Assembly (NCBI GenBank): GCA_958299035.1
Contig: CATQJL010000223.1
Location: 51,380,302 to 51,444,301 of the forward strand
Reading direction: 5' to 3'
Source of the DNA: Cylicocyclus nassatus
Taxonomy: Eukaryota; Nematoda; Chromadorea; Rhabditida; Strongylidae
Length of the DNA stretch: 64,000 nt
In this document: positions 21,875-61,728 of the stretch, piece after piece
Position numbering within the stretch: the stretch's first letter is position 1
Layout: each line of letters begins with the position of its first letter
Notes under the pieces: generated by a model
Seen by the model: only the letters and a program-made list of their open reading frames with translations
Databases searched by the model: none
Told to the model about the DNA's origin: nothing
Position numbers and translations under genes: made by a program

Positions 21875-23003
21875 TCACAGATTTTCGGCGACGAAGTTTC
21901 TCACCTCTTCGTTATCGGGCGGATGGGTCATGAAACCTTGTGGGATCGGCGATAACGACTGCCCTTTGTGGGTGCCGAGGTGGATTCCGATGTTGTAGAG
22001 AATGACGCAGGCCTTGACGACCTTTTGGAGCTTCGGAGGCTGAATGCGGGTGATGTTATGGAGGATGGCGAAACGCCGCTTCAGCGCTCCGAATGCCTGC
22101 TCGACGACTCGTCGAGCTTTGGCGTGCTCCCGATTGAATCGTCTCTTCCTGGCGTCATTCTGTGTGGCCCGCTCCCGATAGGGAGCCATCACGCTCCTGG
22201 AGTTGGCGAAGCCCGCGTCTCCCAGGAGTCGATACCCTGGGCGAGCGCGGGCTTCCTCGAACTCGGCGGCAGCCTGCGAATGCTGCCATATGAACGAGTC
22301 GTGGTGCCTCCCCGCGAACCCGCAGTTGATGTACATGAAGCGGGCCCTGGCATCCACTATCGCAATCATATTGATTGCGCAACATGCCTTTCGGCAGTAA
22401 TAGTGGTTGCCAAAGTGGATGGGCCGCTGGATTCGGATGAGGCATCCATCGACACATCCAATGACATCTAAAAAAATCTAGATTATGATAATCTTATTGA
22501 TCAAGTTTAGGGGCTTACTTGTGAATCTCGAGATTCTGGCGATTTCTCGAGATCTCCGCAAGCACCAGGCCTCGTCCGAAGGGCAGAAGCGGAGGAAGCG
22601 GGCCTCTATTGTTGGATGGTTGAGCGCATCCACAACTCTAGCGACAACGTCGCTCACTGCCTTCTGGCACACCCCGAAACAGTCACCTATAACAGTTTGA
22701 TGACTGTTGGTGGCCAGATAGCGCAGTGTGATGAGGACCTGGATTGAATATAGATTAACCTCGTTGGAAATTTTGCTGGGAAGCCCGTACCTGGTCCTCC
22801 TTACTAATTTCCCACGGCTCCAAACCACTGTCCGGCAGCAGCGGTGCGAGCATCCTTACGATCTTTTTGACATCCTCTAAACGAAACCTGTATTTCGAGT
22901 AGAAGATGCGATCGTTCTGCTCAAACACTGAGGATGGATGGAGCCGGTTGTATCGGATGTTCCTCTGACGCTGCTGTCGGACATTAAAGAGGATGGCTGC
23001 CAT
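21875..23003 (-). CDS. PIF/Harbinger DDE transposase, apparently intact
   Basis: Three exons at 22791-23003, 22519-22738 and 21875-22467 join in consistent phase (0, then 1) to give about 341 residues. The start MAAILFNVRQQRQRNIRYNR is followed by a helical N-terminal domain (FRLEDVKKIVRMLAPLLPDS, LRYLATNSHQTVIGDCFGVC). The DDE_Tnp_4 core has NVIGCVDGCLIRIQRP (first Asp), INCGFAGRHHDSFIW (second Asp region), RLLGDAGFANSRSVM (third conserved Asp) and VVEQAFGALKRRF (catalytic Glu region). All exons are open. The cut-and-paste enzyme normally works with a Myb-like partner; no partner gene lies next to this copy, though relics are at 10.4 and 19.2 kb. Terminal inverted repeats and the expected 3-base target duplication were not found by eye. 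A further upstream exon cannot be excluded. Confidence 0.85.
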
Positions 23004-48990: not shown

Positions 48991-51004
48991 AGGTATTGAA
49001 TATTCGGAATCTTACATACAAGGCCGCTTTTTTGATCCACAGAAGTCCGTCTTCAATTAGATCCGCCCTACAGATAAATCCTTTTTCACCACTATAACTG
49101 ATCTAGATTTTGGCAGATAATCTCACGGGCTTACCTGCGGGAGGCCCTATCTGTGAGATTTTAGGGTGAAATCCTTTTGTTTGTTGTAGCACAACTTCGG
49201 CAATGCGCAAACTCGAATTGTCGGTGTCGACTGACGAAGAATAGTTCGCCTACTTCTTTGCTCAGGAATGGCATGGGTCCCTTATCGTGTGTACGTGAGA
49301 TTACAAGCAAAATTTCGTAACAACTTGCTTTCGAAAAGGCGTCAGGGTCTTCTACATCAGTGCGAGTTATCTGAATGTTATTCTAGAGTCACCGAAAGGA
49401 AAGTCTATGAACTTTTCTTGTCACATACAATTTAAACATAGCTTATCGAAACCTTCTCGTGAGTTCCGAAACTTCTTTGACTTTGAAACATCTGTGTACG
49501 GTTATGCTTACTACAATCGCACAGAGGTGCTTTCGTAGAATGTTCTCAATATATAATTCCTCAATGGTCCTCTCAGCCAAAAGCATCAAGAAAATTTTGA
49601 AAGGCTTCCATGACTGTAAATAAAATAGAACTTCATCTTAGTGAATTCGTGGACCTCTCGATGTGAAGCCCGTCTGTCGCTATAATCTATATGACTATCA
49701 TTAAGATAGATTACATTGCTCACATATGACTTATAGAATAATGCCTAATCGTAATGATAGTCAAATATCGAACAAACACTGGAAGGGCAGAGTCCGTGTC
49801 TGGTATGATATTGAGGTATGTGTCATTCCTTGATTTCAAGTATGATGGGCTTTTTGTTGATTTTTCCATTTGTAAAAACTAATCATGCGATAACGCTTTA
49901 TAGCTTTCAGTTTTGTCAAATAGCACGGATTGTCTGGTATAAAAGCAGCTGAAAATCTGAAGCGAGTGTCAGTTCCCAGCTTTCTATTTCATGTACATAC
50001 CTCTTTCTTAAAATACAGAAAGAATTCATAGATTCTTTTGGGGGGACCAGGCGGTGTCTGGCTTCTGTCGTTGCCTTATTAAGCCATTCCCAAGCAGTTC
50101 AATTGAGCACATTTTCCATAAATTTGTAATTTGTGCCAAAAATAAGAGAAGCCATATTTGAACTTAGCTCACAGCGGCTCACATATATGCACAGAATCAA
50201 GCACAAACCTTCACATGGCCTTTGCCTTCACCTTTTTATAGCCTCAAAGAGCTCCCCCGTAGTCGTCAAAGCGGTAGCGAAATCAGTCAAATGTGGAAAA
50301 TCAAAAGATTTGCAAAGTGAGCGAAACCGTGATCAATACTTTTTCGAAAATGGAAAGAGTCCTGGGTAGCTTATAAGGTTAGATAAACATTGGGTCTCTT
50401 GAATCCTTGCCACCGGCGGAAAGACTTCAAAAAAGCTCTTACTTTTCAACTAATGGACATCCCTTAATACCATTAATTCACCGATTAGTGAATTGATAAG
50501 AATAATCTCGAACATTACATTTCGATATAGAATTTGTTTCATGTGAGTACTAAGTGGGATACGCTGCGAGGGCATGCTGCAAATCATTCGTTCATGGTCA
50601 GCAGCATAATCAATGTTTTCTATGAAAGGCAAGCGAATTCGAAAGCATAAGTTTTTGACCTATTCCAGGTCTTTACCTTCCATAAACATACTCACATGCG
50701 CCATTATTAGTAGAAACATACAGACATACTTACCTACATGCAGGACGTTTGCAATTTGGTCTGATCACAAAAGAACGTGATTGAAAAGTGAAATCTCTGT
50801 CCTTGTTGATTCTAGAGTCCTTCTACTTGCTTAAATACCAGAAACATGCACGCGAGAGTATCCCTGCAAGCTTTCACTCATGTATGTGCAACAGATCGAA
50901 ATAGCAAACATAGTGAGATGTTCGTTGTTGTTCTTGTTGTTGTTCGTAAATTTTCTTATCATTCCGAAAGAATAATTTGATCAACTGAATTTTTTCGCTC
51001 TAGA

Positions 51005-52126
51005 ATGAAAGCAGTTCTCGTGCTTTTCGTCTGCGCGGCATCTATCATGTCGCAAGAGTTGTGGAACCAATACCCGGAGAATGGCAACTACATCGTTCCA
51101 TACAAATTCACCGGCACCTACAGTAACCTTGAATTTCTACACTTGAATCACATGTGAAAACGAAAATTCTTTGTACAAACGAACACTTTGGTCTTTTTAT
51201 CAACTGTCTTGGCTCACTACACTTCAGATTTGAGCAAAACATCGCTAAAATATCTTTTTCAAGGCCCTGAAGAGCGCTCGATGATCACAGCGGCTATGCA
51301 GAAGGTCGCTGACAACACTTGTATCGAATTTAGACCTCGCACGAACGAAGACGAATTTGTCGAGATAGTCAACGAAGAAGACGGGTCGTACGTAACTTTT
51401 CATTTGAGGGTATCTCAAGTGAAACATCATTTGGCACATCTGCGGCCTTAATATGTAAATAGAGATGTATGCGAGGTTGTCCTCGTGATTATCTATGTTT
51501 TCGTTTTTGACTAAGGGTATATTTATTGTACGCTCTCGATTTTAGATGTCGTGCAAATGTAGGAAGAATTGGGGAGAATAGGATATATCTTGAATCGAAC
51601 AATAATGTAAAGTGAGCGCAAGCTACGTTGCGAAAGTTGTATTTTCACAATTTTTCAAACTCATATTCTTCCAGCTGTGCGAAGCAGTGGTATCAACGCA
51701 GAGTACTATTGCATAGTTTGGGACTGAGTGGCGAGCATCAGCGAGTGGATAGAGACAAATACATCAATGTGCATTTCGAAAATATAGCAGGTTGTTCCCT
51801 CAATTTGACTGAGCTCATTTTTAGATAATTTTATGCAGATCCAAATCTGCGCCTGTTCCTAGCCGAGGCTGATTCAACACAAAAGTACACCAGCGTTCCT
51901 TACGACTACTTGTCTATTATGCACGACGCAAAGAATGCTTACGCAAAACCAGGCACGGTTACCATTGAAACTCTCGATTCTACTTATCAGGTCATGTTCA
52001 CACTCTTTTCGTTACTAACATCACGAAAATGCAAGATATTGTTAGGATCAAATTGGATCGGCAACGGAGCCCTCAGGTCGCGACTACGAGAAGATCAATC
52101 TGCTTTACCAGTGCAACAAACCTTGA
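51005..52126 (+). pseudogene. Degenerate astacin metalloprotease, left copy, containing adapter sequence
   Basis: Exon 1 (51005-51122) encodes a signal-like MKAVLVLFVCAASIMSQ, then directly ELWNQYPENGNYIVPYKFTG, the start of the astacin catalytic domain; no prodomain is present. Exon 2 (about 51265-51391) holds ITAAMQKVADNTCIEFRPRT. Exon 3 (51675-51790) holds LHSLGLSGEHQRVDRDKYIN. Exon 4 (51839-51990) holds SVPYDYLSIMHDAKNAYAKP. Exon 5 (52046-52126) holds DYEKINLLYQCNKP and TGA. The start of exon 3 (51680-51706) is replaced by adapter sequence, so the active-site strand is unreadable here. The exon-2 acceptor is TTTTTCAAG rather than TTTCAG. The block between exons 2 and 3 that normally carries the SYVG...GC segment is missing. 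As in the right copy, zinc ligands are lost. Confidence 0.75.
51682..51706 (+). other. SMART cDNA-library adapter sequence (artefact)
   Basis: The 25 bases starting AAGCAGTGGTATCAACGCAG and ending AGTAC are the widely used SMART/SMARTer amplification primer. The tell-tale translation KQWYQRRV appears in the reading frame. In the mirror copy (59.46-59.49 kb) the corresponding 27 bases are ordinary astacin coding, so here they have been overwritten without changing length. Confidence 0.93.
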
Positions 52127-52329
52127 CTCCGTACCTTCAAATCCGATCATTTCACGCATAAAGCATTGAAAGCCAGTTCTACTCCAAATCATCTATTATC
52201 TGAAAAAGAAACCTGCAAAGCTGGAGCGCTTCTCCAAGCAAAACAACTTCATGAGCAATTGAAACGGACACTGAATTGTGCCTCGATTAGCAAATGACCG
52301 CATGTCCATCAGTTTCCAAATTATGTAAG

Positions 52330-58531: not shown

Positions 58532-59042
58532 TGCATACTTCGAAAACAAAAGATGTTCTTCAGTAAATTGTACTACTGAGTCGCTTTGATGTCGAATTAG
58601 GAAACCCATTTTGAGTAACTCGTTTTATCGTAATCAGCAAATAATAAAATTTTTGCTCGAAAAAGTCGGACAAGAATCATAGAGGCTTTCCTTTGATTTC
58701 TGTTCTCTAGCTTATCCCCATCTGCTGTATGGGTTTCTAAGCTCCATACATTCGATTTAGAAAATGATCGCATTTTGATGGCACACAAAATCGAAAACCA
58801 ACTAGAAGAAAACCAGAAAGTATCCCCCCACCCTTAAGCTTAATATTTTATGAAAACTAATGTACATGCGGTCATTTGCTAATCGAGGCACAATTCAGTG
58901 TCCGCTTCAATTGCTCATGAAGTTGTTTTGCTTGGAGAAGCGCTCCAGCTTTGAAGGTTTCTTTTTCAGATAATAGATGATTTGGAGTAGAACTGGCTTT
59001 CAATGCTTTATGCGTGAAATGATCGGATTTGAAGGTACGGAA

Positions 59043-60161
59043 TCAAGGTTTGTTGCACTGGTAAAGCAGATTGATCTTCTCGTAGTCGCGACCTGAGGGC
59101 TCCGTTGCCGATCCAATTTGATCCTAACAATATCTTGCATTTTCGTGATGTTAGTAACGAAAAGAGTGTGAACATGACCTGATAAGTAGAATCGAGAGTT
59201 TCAATGGTAACCGTGCCTGGTTTTGCGTAAGCATTCTTTGCGTCGTGCATAATAGACAAGTAGTCGTAAGGAACGCTGGTGTACTTTTGTGTTGAATCAG
59301 CCTCGGCTAGGAAGAGGCGCAGATTTGGATCTGCATAAAATTATCTAAAAATGAGCTCAATCAAATTGAGGGAACAACCTGCTATATTTTCGAAATGCAC
59401 ATTGATGTATTTGTCTCTATCCACTCGCTGATGCTCGCCACTCAGTCCCAAACTATGCAATAGGTTCACCATTATGGTTTTTGCATCCACACAGCTGGAA
59501 GAATATGAGTTTGAAAAATTGTGAAAATACAACTTTCGCAACGTAGCTTGCGCTCACTTTACATTATTGTTCGATTCAAGATATATCCTATTCTCCCCAA
59601 TTCTTCCTACATTTGCACCGCATCTAAAATCGAGAGCGTACAATAAACATACCTTTAGTCAGGAACGAAAACATAAATAATCATGAGGACTTCTCGTACA
59701 TCTCTATTTACATATTAAGGTCCTCTAGTGCCAAATTATGTTTCACTTGAGAACACCCTTGAATGAAAAGTTACGTACGACCCGTCTTCTTTGTTGACTA
59801 TCTCGACAAATTCGTCTTCGTTCGTGCGAGGTCTAAATTCGACACAAGTGTTGTCAGCAATCTTCTGCATGGCCGTCGTAATCATCGAGCGCTCTTCAGG
59901 GCCTTAAAAAAGATATTTTAGCGAAGTTTTGCTCAAATCTGAAGTGTAGTGAGCCAATACAGTTGATAAAAAGACCAAAGTGTTCGTTTGTACAAAGAAT
60001 TTTCGTTTTCACATGTGATTCAAGTGTAGAAATTCAAGGTTACTGTAGGTGCCGGTGAACTTGTATGGAACGATGTAGTTGCCATTCTCCGGGTATTGGT
60101 TCCACAACTCCTGCGACATGATATATGTCGCGCAGACGAAAAGCACGAGAACTGCTTTCAT
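59043..60161 (-). pseudogene. Degenerate astacin metalloprotease, right copy
   Basis: Same five-exon layout as the left copy, on the minus strand, ATG at 60159-60161 and TGA at 59043-59045. Signal-like MKAVLVLFVCA leads directly into ELWNQYPENGNYIVPYKFTG, so there is no inhibitory prodomain. The active-site strand, undamaged here, reads KTIMVNLLHSLGLSGEHQR. The astacin consensus HExxHxxGxxHExxR therefore has the first His replaced by Val, the catalytic Glu by Asn and the third His by Gly; the second His, Gly, Glu and Arg remain. The Met-turn SxMHY is SIMHD, losing the zinc-binding Tyr. Proteolysis is not expected. The exon-2 acceptor is TTTTTTAAG and the segment before the active site is missing, so it is probably a pseudogene, though a spliced pseudoenzyme cannot be excluded. 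Confidence 0.78.
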
Positions 60162-61728
60162 TCTAGGACGAAAAAATTCATAAGTTGATCAAATTATTCT
60201 TTCGGAATGATGAGAAAATCTACGAACAAACAACAAGAACAACAACGAACATCTCACTATGTTTGCTATTTCTCGGAATCTGTTGCACATACATGAGTGA
60301 AAGCTTGCAGGGATACTCTCGCGTGCATGTTTATGGTATTTAAGCATGTAGAAGGACTCTAGAATCAACAAGGACAGAGTTATCACCTTTTTAATCACCT
60401 CGTTTTTTTGTGATCAGACCAAATTACAAACATCCTGTGCACGTATAGGGGATTCGAAGAATCGTGACGATGGCGCGACCGCCCGCGACACGCACGCATA
60501 TCCGGCAACCGCTACTGTTTTGGTTTTCATCTCTGCACGAATGGTTTTTCTGCTTACGTATGATAGCATTTAGACGCTGGAAGTAACTGAATTGAGAGTT
60601 GAGATGATGCCTTTTTGTATGAGTGGTTTGTGCTCCTGTGGGAGCAAAGACCGCAGTGAAATCCGTAGTCACGATTTTATAAATGGCCTATAGATAAAAA
60701 TGTGTCTATACTCCTACTACTGTATACTGGCGCATGTGAGTGTGTTTGTGGAAGCTGAAGACGTGGATTAGGTCAAAAACTTATGCTTTCGAATTCGCCT
60801 GTATTTTCATAGAAAACATTGATTATGCTGCTAACCATAACCCAATGATTTGCAGCATGCTTTCGCACATACCCCACTTGGTACTCACATGAAACAAATT
60901 TTATATCGAAATGCAATGTCTGGGATTGTTCTTATCAACCCATTATTCGGTGAATTAATGGTTTTAGAGGATGCCCATATTATCAATTAAATAGCAAGAA
61001 CGTTTTTAAAGTCTTCTCGCGCATATAAGTTGCTGTGAGCTAGGTTCAAATGTGGCTTCTCTCATTTTTGGCACAGATTACAAACTTATGGAAAATGTGC
61101 TATTCGTGAAGTGCTTGGAACGGCTCAATAAGGCAACGACAGAAGCCACACACCGCCTGATGCCGCAAAAGAATCTATGAATTCTTTCTGTATTTTAAGA
61201 GAGAGGTATGTACATGAAATAGGAAGCTGGAACTGACACTCGCTTCAGATTTTTGGCTGCTTTTATATCAGACAATCCGTGCTATTTGGCAAAACTGACA
61301 GCTATAAAGCGTTATTGCATGACTTTTCACGAAAATGGAAAAATCAACATAAAGCCCATCGCACATACGATTGTAGCGACAAATGGGCTTCACTACGAGA
61401 TCTCGAATTTTCTCAATCAATAATTTTGCAGTCATAGAAGCCTTGTATTTTCTCGAAATTGCTTAGCTGAGCAGACCATCAAGTAATTTCGTATACTAGA
61501 ACATCTGATAGAGCATGAAATTATTGAAACATGTTTTGATGAAGTTCTGTTTGTAGTCTTACATGCACATACCAAGAGCCCATATCATTCCTCAAGAATC
61601 TAGGAAAGCTATTCTTTATCAGTGACACCGACAACTCATTTTTGCGCTTTACCAGTGTGTGCTATAGCAAAACAATGTTGGAAACATATTTTGTATTTGG
61701 TAGAGTAGAGGATGTACAAGAGAATTTA

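Follow-up and report, generated by a model that had tools for sequence, protein, structure and literature searches.

A synthetic 25-mer overwrites part of an astacin-like exon and recurs, very probably as untrimmed amplification adapter, across the Cylicocyclus nassatus assembly

Introduction

Adapters that enter HiFi assemblies are already known for the SMRTbell blunt adapter and the C2 primer: in PMC8864876, which presents HiFiAdapterFilt, read adapters are built into contigs by HiFi assemblers, take internal, contig-end and chimeric forms, and are called 'errant insertions'. The copies reported below share this fate, but they correspond to an amplification adapter, number in the thousands and replace bases at constant length. 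As outlined in passages of PMC11344823 and PMC13173282, the ultra-low-input protocol takes fragments of about 10 kb through end repair, A-tailing, adapter ligation and PCR. In a passage of a 2025 genome report (PMC12613986), lima took out of PacBio HiFi reads, as adapter contamination, the same 26 letters ending in T that were left in the C. nassatus assembly; that passage gives no ultra-low-input kit name for them. Beyond this removal, we found no open-access title on the oligo as an assembly contaminant in ultra-low-input or HiFi work, and among three adapter-coded peptide strings sought in the literature one was matched, in a paper with a title and abstract on T-cell receptors and not on assemblies.

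Cylicocyclus nassatus is a strongylid nematode, with the horse as host according to the title of a preprint cited in PMC10682056, a paper of 2023; in the citing passage, this preprint is one of three references given for the ultra-low-input protocol, and this citation is the one link found between C. nassatus and that protocol. The C. nassatus assembly comprises 514,686,895 bases in 369 contigs. The stretch of DNA analyzed here, called the window, covers 64,000 bases of it (C223:51380302-51444301), and coordinates without a contig name refer to this window. An earlier note had described in it a SMART cDNA adapter embedded in a genomic astacin exon. We take the 25-mer in question to be common to the SMART cDNA primer and to the PacBio ultra-low-input gDNA amplification adapter, and the adapter of the ultra-low-input kit presumably has the 26-mer sequence, that is, the 25-mer followed by T.

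Results

An exact copy of the 25-mer AAGCAGTGGTATCAACGCAGAGTAC was found at 51682-51706 on the + strand. It was the sole match in the window with up to 3 mismatches allowed, and the expected number of matches at the same tolerance was 0 (100 dinucleotide shuffles of the window). The site and its surroundings are as follows.

51682..51706, + strand (C223:51431983-51432007): synthetic 25-mer, matching exactly the SMART-type amplification oligo / PacBio ultra-low-input gDNA amplification adapter
51707..51707, + strand: T after the 25-mer, in the place where an adapter joined by T/A ligation has its T (T next to 2,417 exact copies, 100/100 of those inspected)
51680..51681, + strand: two non-adapter bases before the 25-mer (paralogue alignment)
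51675..51790, + strand: exon 4 in the left copy of the astacin-like gene, with the adapter inside it (frame and splice sites as seen in the DNA letters)
51005..52123, + strand: span of the gene model of the public protein P0018 (exact mapping to window frames)
50741..52318, + strand: left arm of an inverted duplication, carrying the adapter (94% identity over 1,592 columns to 60437-58851; inverted repeats I1 and I2)
58851..60437, - strand: right arm, a paralogue without the adapter (arm alignment)
59463..59487, - strand: adapter-free counterpart of the 25-mer, 25 ordinary bases (flank mapping)

To place the site among its relatives, 301 bases around it were searched against the whole assembly. 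Ten other places gave an alignment across the site, which in five cases covered the whole query, at 80-94%; nine of the ten were aligned and the tenth (C316, 74%) was left out. The two closest paralogues agreed with the left copy at 121 of the 122 columns before the 25-mer and at 82 of the 82 after it, but at only 3 of the 25 columns inside. Exactly 25 bases stood in place of the 25-mer in eight of the nine aligned paralogues, and 22 in the remaining one. The counterpart in the right arm likewise was identical to the adapter at 3 of 25 positions, with 26 bases between the flanks when the T is counted. Since the flanks agree, the columns of the 25-mer do not, and eight of nine paralogues hold 25 bases, the constant-length replacement at this site is real. 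The displaced length is 25 bases, or 26 if the T of a ligated adapter is included; a T also follows in the closest paralogues, so the T at 51707 may be either genomic or part of the adapter.

The 25-mer in the window is a synthetic scar, an assembly artefact without biological function, which the earlier note spotted correctly while being partly wrong about its source. Its core observation, a synthetic sequence written over biology at constant length between agreeing flanks, was confirmed by the paralogue alignment. Its boundaries needed correction: the adapter had been placed at 51680..51706, with 27 ordinary bases facing it in the mirrored copy. The exact 25-mer lies within this interval and the mirrored copy does hold ordinary sequence of equal length, but this length is 25 and not 27. 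Positions 51680-51681 are not adapter, the first being one substitution away from the two closest paralogues and the second identical to both.

The frame given for the scar, KQWYQRRV, was also recovered: its codons occupy 51682-51705 within exon 4, and the peptide forms residues 106-113 of P0018. This protein of 218 aa (ncbi/uniref/nr, 'unnamed protein product [Cylicocyclus nassatus]', UniRef 'Metalloendopeptidase') gave a 99% match to the astacin-like query. It maps exactly to the window in six pieces (51005-51124, 51266-51388, 51547-51609, 51676-51789, 51838-51990 and 52046-52123), except for residue 103, which is split by an intron and was not placed; residues 104-141 correspond to 51676-51789. 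KQWYQRRV was absent from all eight relatives aligned with P0018. The expectation that a gene predictor would pass the scar into a protein database is thereby borne out, for one protein.

The description of the exon as astacin held in part. It is a coding exon, and exons 4 and 5 together meet Pfam PF01400 (astacin, peptidase family M12A) above the gathering cut-off of 22.5 bits, with 59.6 bits for the right copy and 54.4 bits for the left copy, adapter residues included. Within exon 4, the left copy enters the Pfam profile at position 86 and the right copy at 76. The zinc site of astacins has the motif HExxHxxGxxH. This motif is not present in P0018, where G occupies the place of the third His and the adapter hides that of the H-E pair; in all 8 other aligned proteins, both the H-E pair and the third His are missing. 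We therefore use only the name 'astacin-like'. Because the H-E pair and the third His are absent from the aligned proteins, this astacin-like branch may, as far as their sequences indicate, be catalytically inactive.

The 25-mer is by no means confined to the window. With up to 2 mismatches allowed, the assembly contained 2,650 copies (1,385 forward and 1,265 reverse), and the reversed sequence used as a control gave 0 matches over the whole assembly. Among the exact copies, the next base was T in 2,417 and another base in 4; the other 229 copies (2,650 minus 2,421) carry 1-2 mismatches and as a class stand outside these next-base counts. The four non-T copies continue with CTC, ATC, CTC and CTC. 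Those with CTC (L031, L033 and L034) immediately adjoin gaps, and L034 has a second adapter shortly afterwards.

The copies read in detail were the first 100, all on contig C1 (0-29.1 Mb), and are not a random sample. T was next in all 100, the second base after the oligo was mixed (C 30, G 29, A 22, T 19), and a run of at least 8 T after the oligo was seen in none of them. On the outer side, 64 of these 100 copies had an N run, 59 directly and 5 with one base between, whereas none of the 100 ran into N within the next 12 bases. The N runs were 500 long in 52 of 55, the other three being cut by the edge of the stretch taken. The remaining 36 copies were internal. Flanks of the copies were mostly unrelated to each other, and some copies occurred within satellite arrays or at the ends of contigs. 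Near the beginning of C1, three of them (L001-L003; C1:44768, 74506 and 502102) sit in a satellite array that repeats about every 171 bases, and the adapters keep the register of this array to about 1 base. At the window, the closest gap upstream of the 25-mer is C223:51372594-51373093, about 59 kb off, and its far side carries an adapter. Exact copies were absent from the 10 kb after the window, and from the 10 kb before it except for the one at this gap edge.

The length displaced was examined for 38 internal copies (the 36 on C1, the window copy and L032), with distances scored only within -60 to 120. Among the loci compared, an adapter-free homologous site was found for 17 of the 38, and 21 were without one. 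Counting the T, the modal displaced length at these 17 sites was 26 in 11, a tie of 25 and 26 in one, 27 in three, 25 in one and 7 in one; the 17 are not independent, L001-L003 belonging to one satellite and L094-L098 to one repeat array. The length was thus constant at most testable sites. The exception is L038 (C1:6141767), where 7 bases stand in for the adapter in adapter-free repeat copies.

Orientation was uniform as well. In all 7 stretches with at least two internal copies, bounded only by adapter-bearing gaps, the copies pointed one way, and the same held for 17 of 17 neighbouring pairs, which has a probability of 2^-17 if orientations are independent. In the last stretch, five of the six copies belong to one repeat array; if these are set aside, the count is 12 of 12 pairs. 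At L009, a full adapter is immediately preceded by an adapter prefix of 11 nt, the pattern expected from two reads whose starts are 11 bases apart.

The 25-mer with its T was also found in other collections. In IMG/VR, the 26-mer occurred in 114 contig stretches (L099-L212), at base 1 in 110, at the last base in one and elsewhere in three. In the prokaryote collection it occurred in 12 stretches (L213-L224), all from metagenome-assembled genomes with FRAM isolate names. Eleven of these carry head-to-head pairs, made of two exact 26-mers in 8 of the 12 stretches and, in 3, of an adapter immediately preceded by a reversed one that is one base short; the last stretch has a single copy. Such pairs inside contigs are possible misjoins.

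Discussion

The scars very probably consist of amplification adapter that was left untrimmed on reads and laid into contigs at constant length by an overlap assembler. With little starting material, sheared gDNA would have been A-tailed and ligated to a T-overhang amplification adapter, the 25-mer plus T, then amplified by PCR and sequenced as long reads, with the adapter staying on at least part of them. Overlap layouts write contigs as read prefixes placed end to end. Most likely, adapter-bearing read ends were copied into contigs at this step: the assembler would lay such a read end over the genomic sequence of a neighbouring read and write the contig from the first base of the read on, so that 25 true bases (and the one under the T) are replaced and the length is unchanged. 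Constant length, single orientation and the adapter prefix at L009 all follow if contigs are read prefixes with adapter ends taken as overlap. One orientation per stretch would result if the read ends that reach the contig are only those leading the path, and N runs on the outer side with none downstream are what read ends at contig ends require. Most read-end adapters would have been corrected by overlapping reads, and we infer that the survivors mark places where coverage is thin. As a wider reading, it is fairly likely that the scars record how the assembly was made (read start, path direction, thin coverage), and that possibly many public proteins carry one of five adapter peptides. Translated in its frames, the 26-mer gives KQWYQRRV, SSGINAEY, AVVSTQST, VLCVDTTA and YSALIPLL.

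A constant-length replacement at a read end would also be predicted by mispriming, in which the PCR primer annealed at internal, primer-like genomic sites and overwrote them. This requires a likeness between primer and displaced bases that we did not see: at 12 sites, the displaced bases matched the adapter at 83 of 312 positions, as by chance, with a match of at most 2 at the 3' end. In addition, a primer ending in GTAC does not require the near-constant T that comes next. Mispriming is therefore disfavoured, and we hold it to be improbable.

More improbable still is a contamination of the genomic consensus by SMART cDNA reads made from RNA. The oligo is identical to the SMART amplification sequence (the SMART / Smart-seq cDNA primer has 23-25 nt in common with it), and the window copy does lie within an exon. 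A template-switch oligo is followed by G or ATGGG, and an oligo-dT primer by a long T run. The C. nassatus copies show neither, with a single T before mixed bases, no G run among the four non-T exact copies and no poly-T in the 100 copies read; at the window, the sequence beside the oligo is not spliced, introns being present on both sides of the scarred exon. The copies found within satellites and at the ends of contigs also speak against an RNA source. The base after the oligo thus largely refutes a cDNA origin. Because a single T is found without poly-T or a template-switch G run, the oligo points to the PacBio ultra-low-input gDNA amplification adapter and not to cDNA. The near-universal T followed by mixed bases fits T/A ligation of such an adapter to gDNA: the 25-mer is followed by T in 2,417 exact copies versus 4, the sequence past the T is mixed as expected of genomic DNA, and gaps adjoin 64 of the 100 C1 copies read, as they would if these are read ends and often contig ends. 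Regarding the earlier note, its proposal that low-input or cDNA-derived reads contributed here keeps its first half, and a SMART cDNA adapter as the source is not supported.

Equally improbable as a general account are ligation chimeras, in which two amplicons are joined through their adapters and the false junction is kept in the assembly. Head-to-head pairs are what this would leave, and they were found in the metagenome-assembled genomes described above (11 of 12 stretches) and, near-exact, at L049 (C1:12419341), where a contig contains two adapters head to head, one with an extra G, and probably preserves a ligation of two amplicons. Nevertheless, L049 has the only pair among the 36 internal copies on C1, and the flanks are colinear within 25-27 bases at all but one of the 17 internal sites that could be tested. 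At the window, a single adapter with both flanks colinear in the paralogues refutes a chimera. Such joins may explain a minority of copies, such as L049. A natural repeat or mobile element containing the 25-mer by chance would account for the high copy number, but is rejected as next to impossible by that number against the control, by an exact 25-mer in mostly unrelated flanks, by copies beside scaffold gaps, by bases replaced and not inserted, and by its presence in unrelated records (114 viral contig stretches and 12 prokaryote assembly stretches).

The interest of the scar is one of database quality. More than 2,400 exact copies of a laboratory oligonucleotide remain in the public genome of a horse parasite, an assembly at chromosome scale. 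In at least one protein record of the public databases, that of P0018, the translation of this oligo has taken the place of real residues. Work on astacin-like genes, primer design and variant calling at scar sites would be misled, and every internal copy flags a place that needs to be re-checked. Because the same 26-mer is present in IMG/VR contigs and in metagenome-assembled genomes, the problem reaches beyond one project.

The inverted duplication around the site was also considered as a possible amplification artefact, and this was rejected. The arms diverge (94% overall identity, with outer pieces only 79-90% identical) and there are more paralogues in the neighbourhood, which together suggest a genuine cluster of duplicated genes. 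Six copies of the astacin-like exon region, in both orientations, are spread over about 92 kb at C223:51362935-51455105 (L227-L232, the right-arm counterpart being L229), and four further similar places lie at C223:57.40-57.53 Mb. Identity between the arms is uneven, at 99% over 51706-52318 and 96% over 50986-51411 against 79-90% further out, and these differences may reflect gene conversion (51535-52318 versus 58851-59640). The adapter adjoins the 99%-identical stretch. Elsewhere in the window, a transposase frame lies at 21875-22477 on the - strand; it is 89% identical to another C. nassatus copy, and its relatives carry Pfam PF13359 (DDE Tnp4).
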